Positions 3,639 through 26,616 of a stretch of 34,077 nt of DNA are shown here, piece by piece (position 1 is the stretch's first letter; every line of letters begins with the position of its first letter). The stretch is from Nanobdellota archaeon (GTDB lineage: Archaea > Nanobdellota > Nanobdellia > Parvarchaeales > Parvarchaeaceae). A program made the position numbers and the translations under genes. The notes beneath the pieces were generated by a model. That model had not been told where the DNA came from and searched no databases. It saw only the letters and a program-made list of their open reading frames with translations. The stretch lies in assembly GCA_021800365.1 (NCBI GenBank), contig JAJYZA010000005.1, positions 11,181-45,257 of the forward strand. The letters are read 5' to 3'.

Positions 3639-3796
3639 ATGCTGCAGAAAGCAAAGCCGAACAGGAAATCCCAGTCGGCATTGGAGTACATGATGACGTA
3701 TGGCTGGGCCATACTGATCATAGTAATTGTAGCCGGCGTGCTGTACAGCTTAGGTATCTTCACTCCCTCATCGTCCACAGGCACGACGATAACAGG
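3595..3796 (+). repeat. 202-bp direct repeat, copy A (promoter plus pilin signal)
   Basis: Aligns without gaps to 13960-14161. It covers the promoter, class III signal, membrane helix and the first part of the linker. By my count there are about 6 differences in the 44 upstream bases and 14 in 158 coding bases, 13 of these synonymous. The first ~80 coding bases differ at only two sites. Confidence 0.85.
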
Positions 3797-4739
3797 CTTT
3801 TCAGATTTTGGCGTAAACGGCCAATGTATCCGGGGAGGTGCATTGCAGATGCAGATAACAAACGGCATAGGATATCTTATTAACATAACCCGCATAAACA
3901 CCACCGGTTCAAACGGACAGTCAGTTACGATAAACACTTCAGTACTGATACCACCGGATCAGTCACAGCTGGTCTTTATTCCAGGCGCATGTCCTGCTTC
4001 TACAGGCTCTTCTTATTCAAATCCTGTCACGTTTACGTACAAGGAACCTGGACAAACTTTATCTGGACCGTACTTTTCTCATGGTACTATATCTGGTGTT
4101 CCAGTAAGTACGGACCCAAACCAAGTAGCTAGCTTTAATGGACAATCAACTACAACTATATCAAATATACCTCATTCTGATTTTCCATCAGGCAGTAATG
4201 CGCTTACAATAGTTGCTTGGGTAAAAACTACTCAGGCTACGACTTATCCATTCATTTTTAATTATGGACTTTATGGTAGCAATTATGCGGATGCTATGCT
4301 CGGTATTTACTCAGGCCAGGTTTGCGGGGATTTTTGGGGCGAACATCTATGCTCTACAGCTACAGTTAGTGGCGGTACATGGGATTTCATCGCGCTTTCT
4401 TATCCGGGAGGATCCGCTTCGGCTACTACTTATATAAATGAAAGTGGCACAATAAATTCAGTATTTGCTACGCCCAATATCCAGATAGGTTCGGGTACAA
4501 TTGCGAATATCGGGTATGGTACTAATAATTATTATACTGGAGAAATTTCTAATGTCCAATTATATAGTACTGCATTGTCCTCTTCTCAAATCGATAAATT
4601 ATACGCAGAAGGTTTAGGCGGTGCGCCCATACCAAACGCCGGTCTAGTAGGCTGGTGGCCTTTGGATGGTAATGCCAACGATTACAGCGGAAACAATAAT
4701 AATGGTGTTGCAACAAACGTCCAGTGGGTCTCGCCATAA
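3639..4739 (+). CDS. Pilin-like surface protein with C-terminal LamG domain (copy 1)
   Basis: Predicted exported adhesin, 366 residues. The N-terminus carries a class III (prepilin) signal: basic segment, then R-K-S-Q-S-A-L-E-Y and one hydrophobic helix (about 18-45). Cleavage by the archaeal prepilin peptidase would fall after K-S, leaving Q at +1. Residues about 50-145 form a beta-rich head with two conserved cysteines (Q-C-I-R-G-G and A-C-P). The G-P-Y-F-S linker leads into a LamG/concanavalin-like domain (about 160-366) ending with V-G-W-W-P-L-D-G and D-Y-S-G-N. LamG domains commonly bind carbohydrate. The signal peptide and promoter are nearly identical to those of copy 2 at 14004. It is likely assembled by a platform such as the one at 2-1303, which is inference. 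Confidence 0.8.
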   Translation: MLQKAKPNRKSQSALEYMMTYGWAILIIVIVAGVLYSLGIFTPSSSTGTTITGFSDFGVNGQCIRGGALQMQITNGIGYLINITRINTTGSNGQSVTINTSVLIPPDQSQLVFIPGACPASTGSSYSNPVTFTYKEPGQTLSGPYFSHGTISGVPVSTDPNQVASFNGQSTTTISNIPHSDFPSGSNALTIVAWVKTTQATTYPFIFNYGLYGSNYADAMLGIYSGQVCGDFWGEHLCSTATVSGGTWDFIALSYPGGSASATTYINESGTINSVFATPNIQIGSGTIANIGYGTNNYYTGEISNVQLYSTALSSSQIDKLYAEGLGGAPIPNAGLVGWWPLDGNANDYSGNNNNGVATNVQWVSP

Positions 4740-14003: not shown

Positions 14004-14161
14004 ATGCTGCAGAAAGCAAAGCCGAACAGGAAATCCCAGTCAGCATTGGAGTACATGATGACCTATGGCTGGGCCATACTGATTATAGTGATAGTAGCGG
14101 GAGTATTGTATAGCTTAGGTATCTTCACCCCATCGTCGTCCATAGGCACGACGATAACAGG
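13960..14161 (+). repeat. 202-bp direct repeat, copy B (promoter plus pilin signal)
   Basis: Partner of 3595-3796. Similarity at the nucleotide level falls away sharply after the shared GGCACGACGATAACAGG, where the variable head domains begin. Confidence 0.85.
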
Positions 14162-15272
14162 TTTCAATGGATTGGGAAGTGTAACTGCGCAGTGTTATGC
14201 AAATGGGCTGCTAAGAATACAATTGGGTAATAGTGTAGGTAACGTAATAAACATAACGAAAATAGTAGCCATAAATACGGCTACCGGTCAATCCGCTTCG
14301 TTTACGGGCAGTTCAGCATTGGATCCGAGCCCGGAAATATCTCCTTCGTCTTCGTATATATTCTCTATCGCAAATATCTGCCCACCCGCCGGACAAAAGT
14401 ATAGTTTAAACATCAATGTAACGTATACGGCACCCGGCCAGACTCTTTCAGGCCCTTATTTTTCTACAGGCACGACATCATCTGTAGTATCGACGGTTGC
14501 ACAACCGGTCGCCGTAGCAAGTTTTGATAATTATAATCACTTAGCTTCATATCTTTGGAGCTCTATGTTTAAGTTCTGGTACACGACTTTCGAGTTCTCT
14601 TATATAAATGCGACCCAAAGCATCTCCGGCGTGAATCAAACATATACAGTAACTATGTGGGTAGAATCAACTATTCCTTACGCTACCTATCCCCCCGCTC
14701 CTAATAGTAGTAATATACAGGAAGCTTGGCAACCAATAGCCGCCTTCGCCAATCTCGATGGATTAGAAATTAGCAGTGCAACCGGGAATCTAGCGGTGCA
14801 TAGATGTACTGCTGCAGATGCATATTTAGGCCCATCAAATCCAGTATCTAACTTTTATGATGGACACTGGCATTTCGTAGCGTTTTCTATATCGGCAACC
14901 CAATACATCGGTATGGTTGACGGATTATCCGGTACTGTTACTGGCACGAAGCAGTATTCAGATGGCTCTCAATTTTTTATTGGTGGTTTTGGAGGTTCTG
15001 GCAACACATGTTCTCCGCAGCCGTTTACTGGCTATGAATCGAACGTGCAGCTTTATAACGTGCCGCTATCTTCGGCTCAATTGATCTCTTTGTACGATGA
15101 AGGCATATCGGGAGTGCCGATTTTGGCTAAGGGCAGCGGGTTAGTAGCCTGGTGGCCGCTAAATAACACTGTAAATGGACAGGCCAAAGATTATAGTGGT
15201 AATGGTTTTAATGGGCAGTTCCATAACGCGTCAGTGACGACAGATTACATTAGTGGGGCCATTGGCGGCTAA
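14004..15272 (+). CDS. Pilin-like surface protein with C-terminal LamG domain (copy 2)
   Basis: 422 residues, with the same architecture as the 3639 gene: class III signal R-K-S-Q-S-A-L-E-Y, one membrane helix, a beta-rich head with two cysteines (A-Q-C-Y and I-C-P-P), the linker P-G-Q-T-L-S-G-P-Y-F-S-T-G, then a LamG domain ending in S-N-V-Q-L-Y, V-A-W-W-P-L and D-Y-S-G-N-G. The first ~54 residues differ from copy 1 at one position only, while the head and LamG domains are strongly diverged. The LamG part is closer to copy 3 than to copy 1 (G-V-N-Q-T-Y-T-V near its start and a W-H-F-V-A-F segment). Likely a carbohydrate- or surface-binding adhesin displayed on a pilus-like fibre; the ligand is unknown. 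Confidence 0.8.
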   Translation: MLQKAKPNRKSQSALEYMMTYGWAILIIVIVAGVLYSLGIFTPSSSIGTTITGFNGLGSVTAQCYANGLLRIQLGNSVGNVINITKIVAINTATGQSASFTGSSALDPSPEISPSSSYIFSIANICPPAGQKYSLNINVTYTAPGQTLSGPYFSTGTTSSVVSTVAQPVAVASFDNYNHLASYLWSSMFKFWYTTFEFSYINATQSISGVNQTYTVTMWVESTIPYATYPPAPNSSNIQEAWQPIAAFANLDGLEISSATGNLAVHRCTAADAYLGPSNPVSNFYDGHWHFVAFSISATQYIGMVDGLSGTVTGTKQYSDGSQFFIGGFGGSGNTCSPQPFTGYESNVQLYNVPLSSAQLISLYDEGISGVPILAKGSGLVAWWPLNNTVNGQAKDYSGNGFNGQFHNASVTTDYISGAIGG

Positions 15273-20852: not shown

Positions 20853-21359
20853 ATGTTCAAGAAAAAGTGTAACGTTTGCGGCAGCACGCTGGAAAAGCAA
20901 TGGAGTTTTTGCCCGAACTGCGGTGCTTCATGTGCTGTTAGAAATATGGGTGTGCCGGGAATAAATAACATAAACCTGGATCTAACTAAAGTAATGCAAC
21001 AGGTAGTTGGTCCACTGTTAAATAGCGCGTTCGGTGGGAACATATTCAAACAGAAATCACAGCCACAAAAACAGAGTATGCAAGAAAAGTTTAATAAGAA
21101 CATAGGGAACGTAGAAGAGGTAATAGAACCGCAGGATCTAGTTTCAGAACATGGCGATACAATTGTTCATGCCATAAATCTGCCCGGCGTCAAAAGTAAA
21201 TCCGATATAAACATAACAAAGATGGAAAATTCTATAGAAGTTAGGGCACTGTGCGGTAAAAAATTATATCTTAAGATAATACAGAGAGAGAAAGGCGAAG
21301 GCGTAGTCTCTGAGGATTTCACGCAAGAGAATCTTATCCTGGTATTAAAGAAAATATAA
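20853..21359 (+). CDS. Zinc ribbon fused to Hsp20/alpha-crystallin-like domain
   Basis: 168 residues. The N-terminal zinc ribbon has C6-N-V-C9-G and C20-P-N-C23-G. A middle linker (about 30-85) is rich in Asn, Gln and Lys. The C-terminal ~80 residues follow the small heat-shock protein pattern: V-H-A-I-N-L-P-G-V-K-S-K-S-D-I-N-I, then S-I-E-V-R-A, L-Y-L-K-I-I and a final L-I-L-V-L-K-K. sHSPs hold unfolded clients; a zinc ribbon in front is unusual and could recruit a partner or nucleic acid. A TATA-like GATATATTA (20825-20832) lies about 24 nt before the ATG, so it is probably leaderless. The sHSP assignment is moderate because the domain is short. Confidence 0.65.
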   Translation: MFKKKCNVCGSTLEKQWSFCPNCGASCAVRNMGVPGINNINLDLTKVMQQVVGPLLNSAFGGNIFKQKSQPQKQSMQEKFNKNIGNVEEVIEPQDLVSEHGDTIVHAINLPGVKSKSDINITKMENSIEVRALCGKKLYLKIIQREKGEGVVSEDFTQENLILVLKKI

Positions 21360-21373
21360 TTAATTAGAAAAAG

Positions 21374-21400
21374 TTTGCTTTTAAAAAACAAAAAAGCAAA
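21374..21400. terminator. Shared terminator between convergent genes
   Basis: TTTGCTTTT and AAAAGCAAA form a perfect 9-bp inverted repeat in a 56-bp gap between the sHSP gene (plus) and the acidic small gene (minus). Long A and T runs lie on both sides, so it could end transcription in both directions. Confidence 0.5.
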
Positions 21401-21414
21401 AAAATAAATAATTT

Positions 21415-21558
21415 TTATTCTAGATCGTTATCTTCGTCAGCTTCTTCGTCGTTTTCTTCATCTTGTCCTTCATCGTACATGTCTCCAAGATCTTCGTTCT
21501 CTTCAATCATGTCCTCATCGGGCTCTTCTTTTTTCTTTTTCGTAGCCTTTTTTGGCAT
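21415..21558 (-). CDS. 47-residue highly acidic protein
   Basis: A short but well-supported gene. The N-terminus is lysine-rich (M-P-K-K-A-T-K-K-K-K); from residue 11 on nearly every second residue is acidic, with 23 Asp/Glu in 47 by my count, and the rest includes Met, Tyr and Asn. It is surely disordered. A textbook ribosome site, GGAGG (plus positions 21565-21569), lies 6 nt before the ATG, and possible TATA elements lie further up (for example CTTTTAAG, 21604-21611). Codons are unremarkable. It may be a histone-like or nucleic-acid-mimic chaperone tail, or a ribosome-associated factor. It lies divergent from the Rpp21-ribosomal operon. Confidence 0.75.
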   Translation of the reverse strand: MPKKATKKKKEEPDEDMIEENEDLGDMYDEGQDEENDEEADEDNDLE

Positions 21559-21717
21559 ACACTCCCTCCATTCGGTGCGTATTTTTATTTTGGACGCGCC
21601 TACCTTTTAAGTGAATAGCCGTCTTTATAAACGTTTCTATAATTCTAATTTGATAAAAATCACAAATTTTTTAACCTTTTTAAATCGTGTAGGCATCTAT
21701 AATTTGAACTGATAATT

Positions 21718-22020
21718 ATGATAAAATCTAAGGACAAAGTTTCATTCAAGGCCGACTTCGATTTTTTGGTAAAAGAGTCGCAGGTACTATATGATTTGAA
21801 TCGGGAATTATCTGACAGATACGCCTATATTGCGTATAAAATATATCTTTCAAAGAAACTTAAACTCGCAAAAAATGAAAAGGTTTTAATATGCAGAAAA
21901 TGCAATAAGATACTTATCCCAGGAAAAACTTTGGTAATCCGGTTAAGTAAAGGCATGATAACGTATAAATGTTTAAATTGTGCAAATGTTAGGAGGTTAA
22001 GATATGATTCGGGCATATGA
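21718..22020 (+). CDS. rnp4: RNase P protein Rpp21/Rpr2 (RNP4)
   Basis: 100 residues. Protein subunit of archaeal RNase P, the enzyme that trims tRNA 5' ends. The N-terminal helices (about 10-50) are followed by the diagnostic zinc ribbon: C59-R-K-C62-N-K-I-L-I-P-G-K, then C85-L-N-C88-A-N-V-R-R-L-R-Y. TTTTTAAA at 21677-21684 is a probable TATA giving a leader of about 10 nt for the whole operon that runs to ftsY. Its 3' end overlaps the eS19 gene by 17 nt. Confidence 0.9.
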   Translation: MIKSKDKVSFKADFDFLVKESQVLYDLNRELSDRYAYIAYKIYLSKKLKLAKNEKVLICRKCNKILIPGKTLVIRLSKGMITYKCLNCANVRRLRYDSGI

Positions 22021-24708: not shown

Positions 24709-26616
24709 TCACTGTACTCCGCCAACTATAACATATGGCATTACACCGTTTGGAGGATATGCTCTTACAAGGACACCATTCCAATATTCCTCATCTAAGC
24801 TGCTAAGGCCGTCACCGATCAGACCTAGGTAGATGCCTTTATTTGAAACCGCGTATGTGTTAGATGGATTCTGCCCAAGTTCACTGCCGTACGTGCCCGG
24901 GGAGCTAGAAAGATATTGTGTTGCCGAGCCGCCAGTGACGATTACACCTGCTAAAACCCATTCGTTAGTCCACGAACCGGTATCGGGAGGAGCACCCCAG
25001 GAGGTCCAAGAAGAAGTGGCTGCTATCCCATACCAGCCTGTACCATCGCCTTGTCTAGCTAGCTGTCCAGCTCCAGTTGAATTCTCAAGAAAGAATACGT
25101 CATTTAATCCGGTAATATAAGTATAGTACTCTATAATCATGTTCGTAGATTGCCCCGGGGCTAAAGTATAAAGGAAATCTCCTACGCTGCTATTCGCATA
25201 CATTGCTTTTTTGCCAAAAGGAGAGCCGCTAGGCGCCGACGAAGTATCGCCTGCATACCCGGAGGTTGTCCATCCCGATATTGAACTTCCATTATAATAA
25301 TCATTAAATACATTTGCGCCGTCATCGTATTCTGCATAAGTAGAAGAAAGCTGAGGAGCTTCACCGGTTATTTTATTATTGAAAACATTAAAATCGGTTG
25401 GATAGAAGTCCATCAATATTTCAGTCGTAGAGTCTGCAGGAAGGCTTCCGAGTCTTAACCAATATAAAGTCTTATTGCTAGCGGCTCCGGCGAAATTAAA
25501 TAATACGCCATTATTTTGGGCACTAGGTCCGCTGGAAAGCACGTCATTTACATTGCCAATTAATGGCCACCATCCGACCAACGAGCTGTAAAACGTATTT
25601 AGGGGTGCACCGTTAAGTCCTTCATAATACATGCCGGATATAACTGCAGGAGTTAATGCAGTTGAATATATTTGTACGTTTGTTATGCTTCCATTGAATG
25701 CCGTGCCAATTATTGATCCAGTCCATGTGCCAATATTAAGAGCCGTCCATGCTTCGTGGTTATACGCAGTTTTATTACCTATCAACTTCCCATTTACATA
25801 AAAACTTAAAGTCTTAGTAACATTGCTCCAAGTAACAACGTAATAGTTCCAGGTGTCTATCGGCGCATCATAACTAAAATTAATAAAATTACTTGCACAT
25901 GTGCCATTTCTAAATTCTACTAGTATCCAACCGCCTTGGCTAGTTAATATCCCCCCGTTGCAACCGACAAGATTTATTATGTAACGCCAATTATTAGAAG
26001 GATAATTCCTTGCTTGTGCCCAAACAGACCAGGTCAGACTGGATGTAGTACTGCTTTCAGGTATGCCACTACTTACGCCGACATAAGCGCCGCTACCATT
26101 AAATATGGCCATGTTCCCGCTTTCTAACCAGGATGGAATTATGGTCCCGTTTGGATAAGAGAATCTGATATTATCGAGCGAAGGGGCTTCATATTGTGAA
26201 TACGCAGAAGAGTTAATGGTAATCAGTTGCTGAAAAGGGGCCGGTGTCGCAGTTGGTTGTGCGTTGACAATGTTTAATATAAGAGAAGGTAGAGGAGAAA
26301 CGCTCCCATATTCTCCGTTTATAACTAAACCATTACTGAAGTTTAGATTGTACTGATTAAAATATGCATTTTTAATAGCTTCTATCGCCGAAACAAGGAA
26401 AGAATTTGCCACGGAAGAAGGTGATAGACTTTGTACAAAGGCATACTGAGAAAGCAAGTTATAATAGATAGAATTTGTAATTGCAGTCCCGGTTTGTAAA
26501 ACCGTGATGTGCTGGTTCAGAATCAAGTTATTATATTCTAAACTAAAGACTGCGATTATTGCACTTATCAAAAGAATAGAGAATATTATGGTTACAAATT
26601 GCCCTTTTGAATTCAT
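24709..26616 (-). CDS. Surface protein with LamG domain inside a DUF2341-like domain
   Basis: 635 residues. The N-terminus S-K-G-Q-F-V-T-I-I-F-S-I-L-L-I plus one hydrophobic helix resembles a class III signal; a long helical/beta stalk follows to about 145. Residues near 150-170 (D-N-I-R-F-S-Y-P-N-G-T-I-I-P-S-W-L-E-S-G) look like the first half of DUF2341. A LamG domain (about 172-375, ending V-G-W-W-P-L-I-G and N-N-G-V-L-F-N-F) interrupts it. The second half resumes at L-Y-W-L-R-L-G-S-L-P-A-D-S-T and G-E-A-P-Q-L-S. A C-terminal beta region (about 440-635) looks like a second jelly-roll. Probably an exported, surface-exposed binding protein. It diverges from elp3 over 54 bp. Confidence 0.75.
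   Translation of the reverse strand: MNSKGQFVTIIFSILLISAIIAVFSLEYNNLILNQHITVLQTGTAITNSIYYNLLSQYAFVQSLSPSSVANSFLVSAIEAIKNAYFNQYNLNFSNGLVINGEYGSVSPLPSLILNIVNAQPTATPAPFQQLITINSSAYSQYEAPSLDNIRFSYPNGTIIPSWLESGNMAIFNGSGAYVGVSSGIPESSTTSSLTWSVWAQARNYPSNNWRYIINLVGCNGGILTSQGGWILVEFRNGTCASNFINFSYDAPIDTWNYYVVTWSNVTKTLSFYVNGKLIGNKTAYNHEAWTALNIGTWTGSIIGTAFNGSITNVQIYSTALTPAVISGMYYEGLNGAPLNTFYSSLVGWWPLIGNVNDVLSSGPSAQNNGVLFNFAGAASNKTLYWLRLGSLPADSTTEILMDFYPTDFNVFNNKITGEAPQLSSTYAEYDDGANVFNDYYNGSSISGWTTSGYAGDTSSAPSGSPFGKKAMYANSSVGDFLYTLAPGQSTNMIIEYYTYITGLNDVFFLENSTGAGQLARQGDGTGWYGIAATSSWTSWGAPPDTGSWTNEWVLAGVIVTGGSATQYLSSSPGTYGSELGQNPSNTYAVSNKGIYLGLIGDGLSSLDEEYWNGVLVRAYPPNGVMPYVIVGGVQ

Follow-up and report, generated by a model that had tools for sequence, protein, structure and literature searches.

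A lineage-restricted, probably disordered polyacidic protein of 39 to 50 residues encoded divergently from the S19e gene run in the archaeal family Parvarchaeaceae

The known free-standing polyacidic disordered proteins are mostly eukaryotic. Among them, chaperones of the prothymosin-alpha type (prothymosin-alpha itself has about 110 residues) are small, probably disordered and extremely rich in Asp and Glu, and they are expected to act by charge. DSS1/Sem1, also eukaryotic, falls in a similar size range and combines acidity and probable disorder with a few hydrophobic residues. Acidic tails may also belong to a larger protein, and those of Rpb6, the bacterial RNA polymerase delta subunit and eIF1A dock in cis. 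PMC10250230 describes the D/E-repeat tails of DNA/RNA-binding proteins such as HMGB1 as acting electrostatically. With respect to gene expression, passages of PMC7509114 report that bacterial 5' stem-loops and strong ribosome sites can stabilize mRNAs.

Here, we describe an archaeal gene whose product shares all the features given above for the prothymosin-alpha-type chaperones, but which has only 47 residues, a Lys-rich head and no Pfam match, and which occurs in a family without histones. It likewise resembles DSS1/Sem1 in size range, acidity, probable disorder and the presence of a few hydrophobic residues, but differs in having no Pfam match and only 0 to 3 aromatic residues per copy. An acidic disordered stretch and electrostatic action would be held in common with the HMGB1-type tails; however, those tails act in cis on their own polypeptide, whereas the acidic protein studied here is free-standing.

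The gene was analyzed in a stretch of 34,077 nucleotides, hereafter the window, from contig JAJYZA010000005.1 of assembly GCA_021800365.1 (genome of 898 kb in 30 contigs). An earlier reading made from the sequence alone (the sequence-only reading) had proposed a polyacidic ORF of 47 residues, and this was confirmed with exact coordinates: the ORF lies at 21415..21558 on the minus strand, runs from ATG to TAA, and contains 23 Asp/Glu among its 47 residues (49% D+E). A Lys-rich head (residues 1 to 10) precedes an Asp/Glu tail, with a conserved core at about residues 15 to 31. Among the 177 window ORFs of 30 to 100 aa, the next most acidic reaches 19% D+E, and the median is 4%. The protein thus has the extreme acidity of small acidic disordered proteins, both here and over 30 copies from the family, whose tails contain 54 to 76% D+E. 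The plus-strand reading of the same interval was rejected, as its first frame stops at the third codon; shorter plus-strand ORFs, e.g., 21463..21618, overlap the gene. A T-rich tract 3' of the stop codon (21378..21414, minus strand) is a possible terminator, and T-rich tracts were also seen by eye 3' of the stop in the other family copies.

The acidic gene is divergent from a run of genes in the order Rpp21-S19e-PDCD5-L39e-L31e-prefoldin-FtsY. Pfam backs the names Rpp21, PDCD5 and prefoldin, and the other genes are presumably those for S19e, L39e, L31e and FtsY. The first gene of the run, encoding the RNase P subunit Rpp21/Rpr2 (21718..22020, plus strand), is the divergent neighbor. The divergence from a ribosomal/SRP operon that the sequence-only reading had described was therefore found as claimed, with the acidic gene on the minus strand and the Rpp21-to-FtsY run opposite.

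When the protein alone was searched against 94 genomes, nine of the genus matched at E ≤ 1, its own genome included, along with one weak match outside the family. Since polyacidic sequence is hard to detect by similarity, loci were anchored on the neighboring S19e gene, which was found in 91 of the 94 genomes, and the adjacent DNA was then read. A copy of the acidic gene, of 39 to 50 residues, was found in 30 of the 32 family genomes. The other two were not assessable: in G028 the contig covers only about 350 bases upstream of S19e, and no S19e was found in G031. At 29 of the 30 loci, a divergent polyacidic ORF stands about 400 to 500 bases before S19e, upstream of the Rpp21-like gene; in the remaining genome (G015), the start of the contig truncates the locus, and the copy is found at the end of a different contig. 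The copy in G016 was missed by a profile and recovered by its position beside S19e, showing that synteny can recover mini-genes that profiles miss. No match came from a profile search of G016, G028 and G031, a result of little weight given that G016 does carry the gene.

In each of the 30 family genomes that could be assessed, the frame, the head/tail pattern and a ribosome site are retained, which is beyond chance. Conservation of frame and ribosome site in close relatives was the check proposed for the gene at the outset; when run, it showed both to be conserved. In nine hand-picked, non-overlapping genome pairs (377 codons), substitutions at codon positions 1, 2 and 3 numbered 37, 22 and 113. 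The single-step changes in these pairs comprised 64 synonymous and 38 amino-acid-changing ones, and 20 of the latter 38 were D-E swaps. Distances between the acidic proteins track those between the S19e proteins over the 30 genomes (Mantel r 0.81, 0 of 2000 permutations), with a mean identity of 51% for the acidic protein versus 67% for S19e. These comparisons indicate that the gene is inherited with the genome and is under selection. A chance ORF, or a non-coding RNA (e.g., a C/D-box RNA) mistaken for a protein, has one sub-threshold Rfam match in its favor (snoZ5, 20.3 bits versus a gathering cutoff of 60, E 0.66), but is contradicted by what 30 genomes show, namely an open frame, a ribosome site and a third-position bias, and its probability is next to negligible. 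We are nearly certain that the ORF is a translated gene, and the view of it as a real gene is upheld by the frame kept in every assessable family genome and by the third-position substitution bias.

The two parts of the protein differ in charge throughout the family. Each of the 30 copies has 3 to 7 Lys in the first 12 residues and 0 to 1 basic residue in the rest, lacks Arg and Cys altogether, and carries a net charge of -15 to -23. A [IVLMF][IVL][DE][DEQ] motif (IIEE, IVEE, etc.) is present in 24 of the 30 copies and missing in 6, and in the alignment a second patch (DGLDDEDLED or GDMYDEGLEEE) often comes after it. The protein is probably a disordered, two-block polyampholyte, made up of a Lys head and an Asp/Glu tail with a net charge of about -20. 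AlphaFold, run with the alignment, returned a mean pLDDT of 61 and a pTM of 0.15, with no secondary structure reported; this prediction is consistent with, though not proof of, disorder together with a short core that may serve for docking. Nucleic-acid-mimic proteins, to which the sequence-only reading had also likened the protein, are folded and present a nucleic-acid-like charge surface; AlphaFold yielded no confident fold for the acidic protein.

None of the 27 distinct members matched any Pfam or NCBIfam model at E ≤ 0.1, the Pfam result extending to the Prothymosin and DSS1/Sem1 families, in searches that are weak for such composition. A profile built from the 27 distinct copies found no PDB chain at E ≤ 10, a search that is weak for the same reason. 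Scanned against 234 genomes of the class, the profile gave 29 matches at E ≤ 0.1, all within the family, and against 371 genomes of the phylum it gave 16, of which 15 were in the family. The 16th was a partial match inside a 931-codon frame and was set aside as a matter of composition, leaving no convincing copy outside the family in either scan. Since the profile missed G016, such absence elsewhere is no proof, and distant copies are possible.

We also inspected the DNA upstream of S19e in 59 of the 60 genomes from other families of the class that have S19e (G093 was left out) and found no comparable ORF; the nearest, in G051, had 34% D+E. Contig ends shortened 4 of these 59 stretches, and the shortened G028 stretch was included as well. 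The 59 loci without the gene indicate that these ribosomal proteins can generally do without it. At 52 named archaeal S19e loci, the gene was present at three, all belonging to family genomes (G024, G012 and G019). No paper on the gene was found among the literature matches listed. The acidic proteins form a new family that is confined to this lineage and belongs to a kind known descriptively.

Upstream of the ORF, a Shine-Dalgarno GGAGG lies 6 nt before the ATG (21565..21569, minus strand). The 16S-3'-end-like sequence of the same genome reads TGCGGCTGGATCACCTCC and ends GGATCACCTCC, the complement of GGAGG. All 30 copies start with ATG and have a ribosome site 4 to 6 nt away, which is GGAGG in 29; the exception, G022, has AGGTGA, also complementary to the 16S end. 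The strong ribosome site noted in the sequence-only reading is therefore found here and in nearly the whole family. For comparison within the window, 35 ATG-started genes were picked by eye, leaving out GTG- and TTG-started ones. GGAGG occupied the ribosome-site position in two of them (the acidic gene and S19e), two more had a 4-base match, and the other 31 had no ribosome site.

A TATA-like box, TTTATAAA, lies at 21624..21631 on the minus strand. TTTATA is found 68 to 83 nt before the ATG in 26 of the 30 copies, with variants in the other 4, and GAAA often stands directly upstream of the box (by eye). Transcription is predicted to start at 21602..21604 (minus strand), some 28 nt downstream of the first T in the box, a prediction based on a spacing that no more than 7 of the 20 window genes examined show: these seven have TTTAAA or TTTATA 27 to 31 nt before the ATG, as expected of leaderless genes. 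In six of the other 13, the box stands at a different distance, and the remaining genes show either no box or some other AT-rich match. A spacing of 28 nt would bring the start to the base of an inverted repeat, or close to it; this repeat forms a putative hairpin in the 5' leader (21574..21600, minus strand; p 0.08 in this genome, significant over the family). Near the predicted start, between the TATA box and the hairpin and about 50 nt before the ATG, many copies also carry a CTCTTAAAAGTAA-like element, which is perhaps an initiator. The conserved CTCTTAAAAG upstream of the hairpin might have served as an anti-Shine-Dalgarno sequence, but this idea was rejected because the sequence precedes the predicted start and some copies lack it.

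Folding was compared over 28 distinct leaders, taken from the predicted start to the ribosome site with TATA positions set by hand. The predicted leaders fold better than dinucleotide shuffles (mean z -2.62), with p < 0.05 in 20 of 28 and p < 0.1 in 24 of 28, a level that 4 of the 28 miss; mean z was +0.10 and -0.61 at two control positions in 29 loci. With a fixed window, the mean z was -2.13 (p < 0.05 in 17 of 28) versus -0.07 for 29 control windows, and a stem of at least 5 pairs formed in 20 of 28 leaders compared to 10.5 in shuffled sets. Judged by folding energies, the leader hairpin is thus stronger than chance, as expected of stabilizing stem-loops. The stem sequences vary between species, and MAFFT fails to align leader stems of different sequence. 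RNAalifold on the 28 leaders gave no pairs, and a count of pairs retained in 11 close leaders was not significant (71% versus 67.5% in shuffles, with 68 of 500 reaching it), while slid pairings in the same 11 leaders gave only 22 to 46%. With both the RNAalifold and the pair-count results null, the case for the hairpin rests on folding energies.

By eye, the hairpin is followed by an A-rich spacer, the ribosome site and the ATG. The hairpin, spacer and strong Shine-Dalgarno site are features shared with the mRNA-stabilizing 5' leaders of bacteria treated in passages of PMC7509114, but the acidic gene is archaeal and its start is predicted from TATA spacing. Scanning its own genome for TTTATA, 36 to 64 bases, GGAGG, 3 to 7 bases and ATG gave six places, so that the arrangement is rare, but not unique, in this genome. 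One of the five other places (L199, G000:C28:68814-68886) has a predicted leader hairpin of -4.6 kcal/mol, upstream of a gene that we take to resemble FtsZ, and another has a weak one. With its leader and probable hairpin, the acidic gene stands in a window most of whose checked genes lack a ribosome site.

With regard to function, we tentatively favor a soluble polyanion that shields basic RNA/DNA-binding proteins as an electrostatic chaperone or decoy, by analogy with the prothymosin-like chaperones and with the D/E tails of PMC10250230. A TATA-type promoter would set the mRNA start near the 5' hairpin and translation would proceed from the near-perfect Shine-Dalgarno site; taken together, these features suggest that expression is steady and high. 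The protein would then act stoichiometrically, transiently shielding basic RNA/DNA-binding proteins that are prone to aggregate. Candidate partners are newly made ribosomal proteins, for example S19e/L39e, or Alba, which was found in 23 of 26 family genomes searched, and the Lys head together with the I-I/V-E-E...L-G/D core may give some target preference. The divergent neighbors, being ribosomal and RNase P proteins, speak for charge shielding; their divergent arrangement with the acidic gene may be incidental. Histones are another matter. The sequence-only reading had likened the protein to histone chaperones, and its composition is like that of the prothymosin-like polyacidic chaperones, but the client is missing: none of the 32 family genomes (G000-G031) has a match to the histone fold PF00808, which was detected in 17 of 23 genomes from elsewhere in the class and in 3 of 14 controls, and the relevant passages of PMC6136690 report Parvarchaeota without histones and with Alba present. 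As the family has no histone fold, a histone chaperone is contradicted and extremely improbable, unless a histone outside PF00808 or a target in a host were involved. A very doubtful extension of charge shielding would make the free polyanion a core, family-wide part of the histone-free Parvarchaeota, an "acidic tail" acting in trans to tune the binding of Alba to DNA or of ribosomal proteins to RNA, with feedback from a partner on its synthesis via the gene's own structured leader.

The strongest rival to charge shielding is docking on RNA polymerase or the ribosome. As an accessory of the transcription or translation machinery, the protein would use its hydrophobic core to dock an acidic tail on RNA polymerase, an initiation factor or the ribosome. 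The motif in 24 of 30 copies means that the acidic tail is not featureless, and the gene adjoins Rpp21/S19e. The motif is absent from the other 6 copies, however, and the searches, weak as they are here, gave neither a Pfam/NCBIfam match for any of the 27 distinct members (E ≤ 0.1) nor a PDB chain (E ≤ 10); we consider docking rather unlikely. A polyanion buffering metal ions or protons in acid, metal-rich habitats would fit the extreme charge and the drift between D and E (20 of 38 single-step changes in the nine pairs), and PMC10134863 describes the Parvarchaeales as adapted to acid environments, but a pure buffer leaves the hydrophobic core and the Lys head unexplained and is quite improbable. 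One small polyacidic protein across reduced, histone-less archaea would provide a minimal natural test case for a pure charge-block protein.

On its other side, the acidic gene has a convergent neighbor in the window, encoding a zinc-ribbon-like protein of 168 aa (20853..21359, plus strand; best Pfam score 24.7 bits, cutoff 27). A similar gene was seen by eye beside the acidic gene in 29 of 29 loci, inverted in G011 and G024. An Hsp20-like "LPGV" stretch was also noted by eye in the zinc-ribbon-like protein. Elsewhere in the window, two pilin-like genes (3639..4739 and 14004..15272, both plus strand) have identical N-terminal 46 residues and similar upstream DNA. The remainder of the two has diverged and is Laminin_G-like, above the Pfam cutoff in the first and below it in the second, and a third Laminin_G_3 protein is encoded at 24709..26616 on the minus strand.
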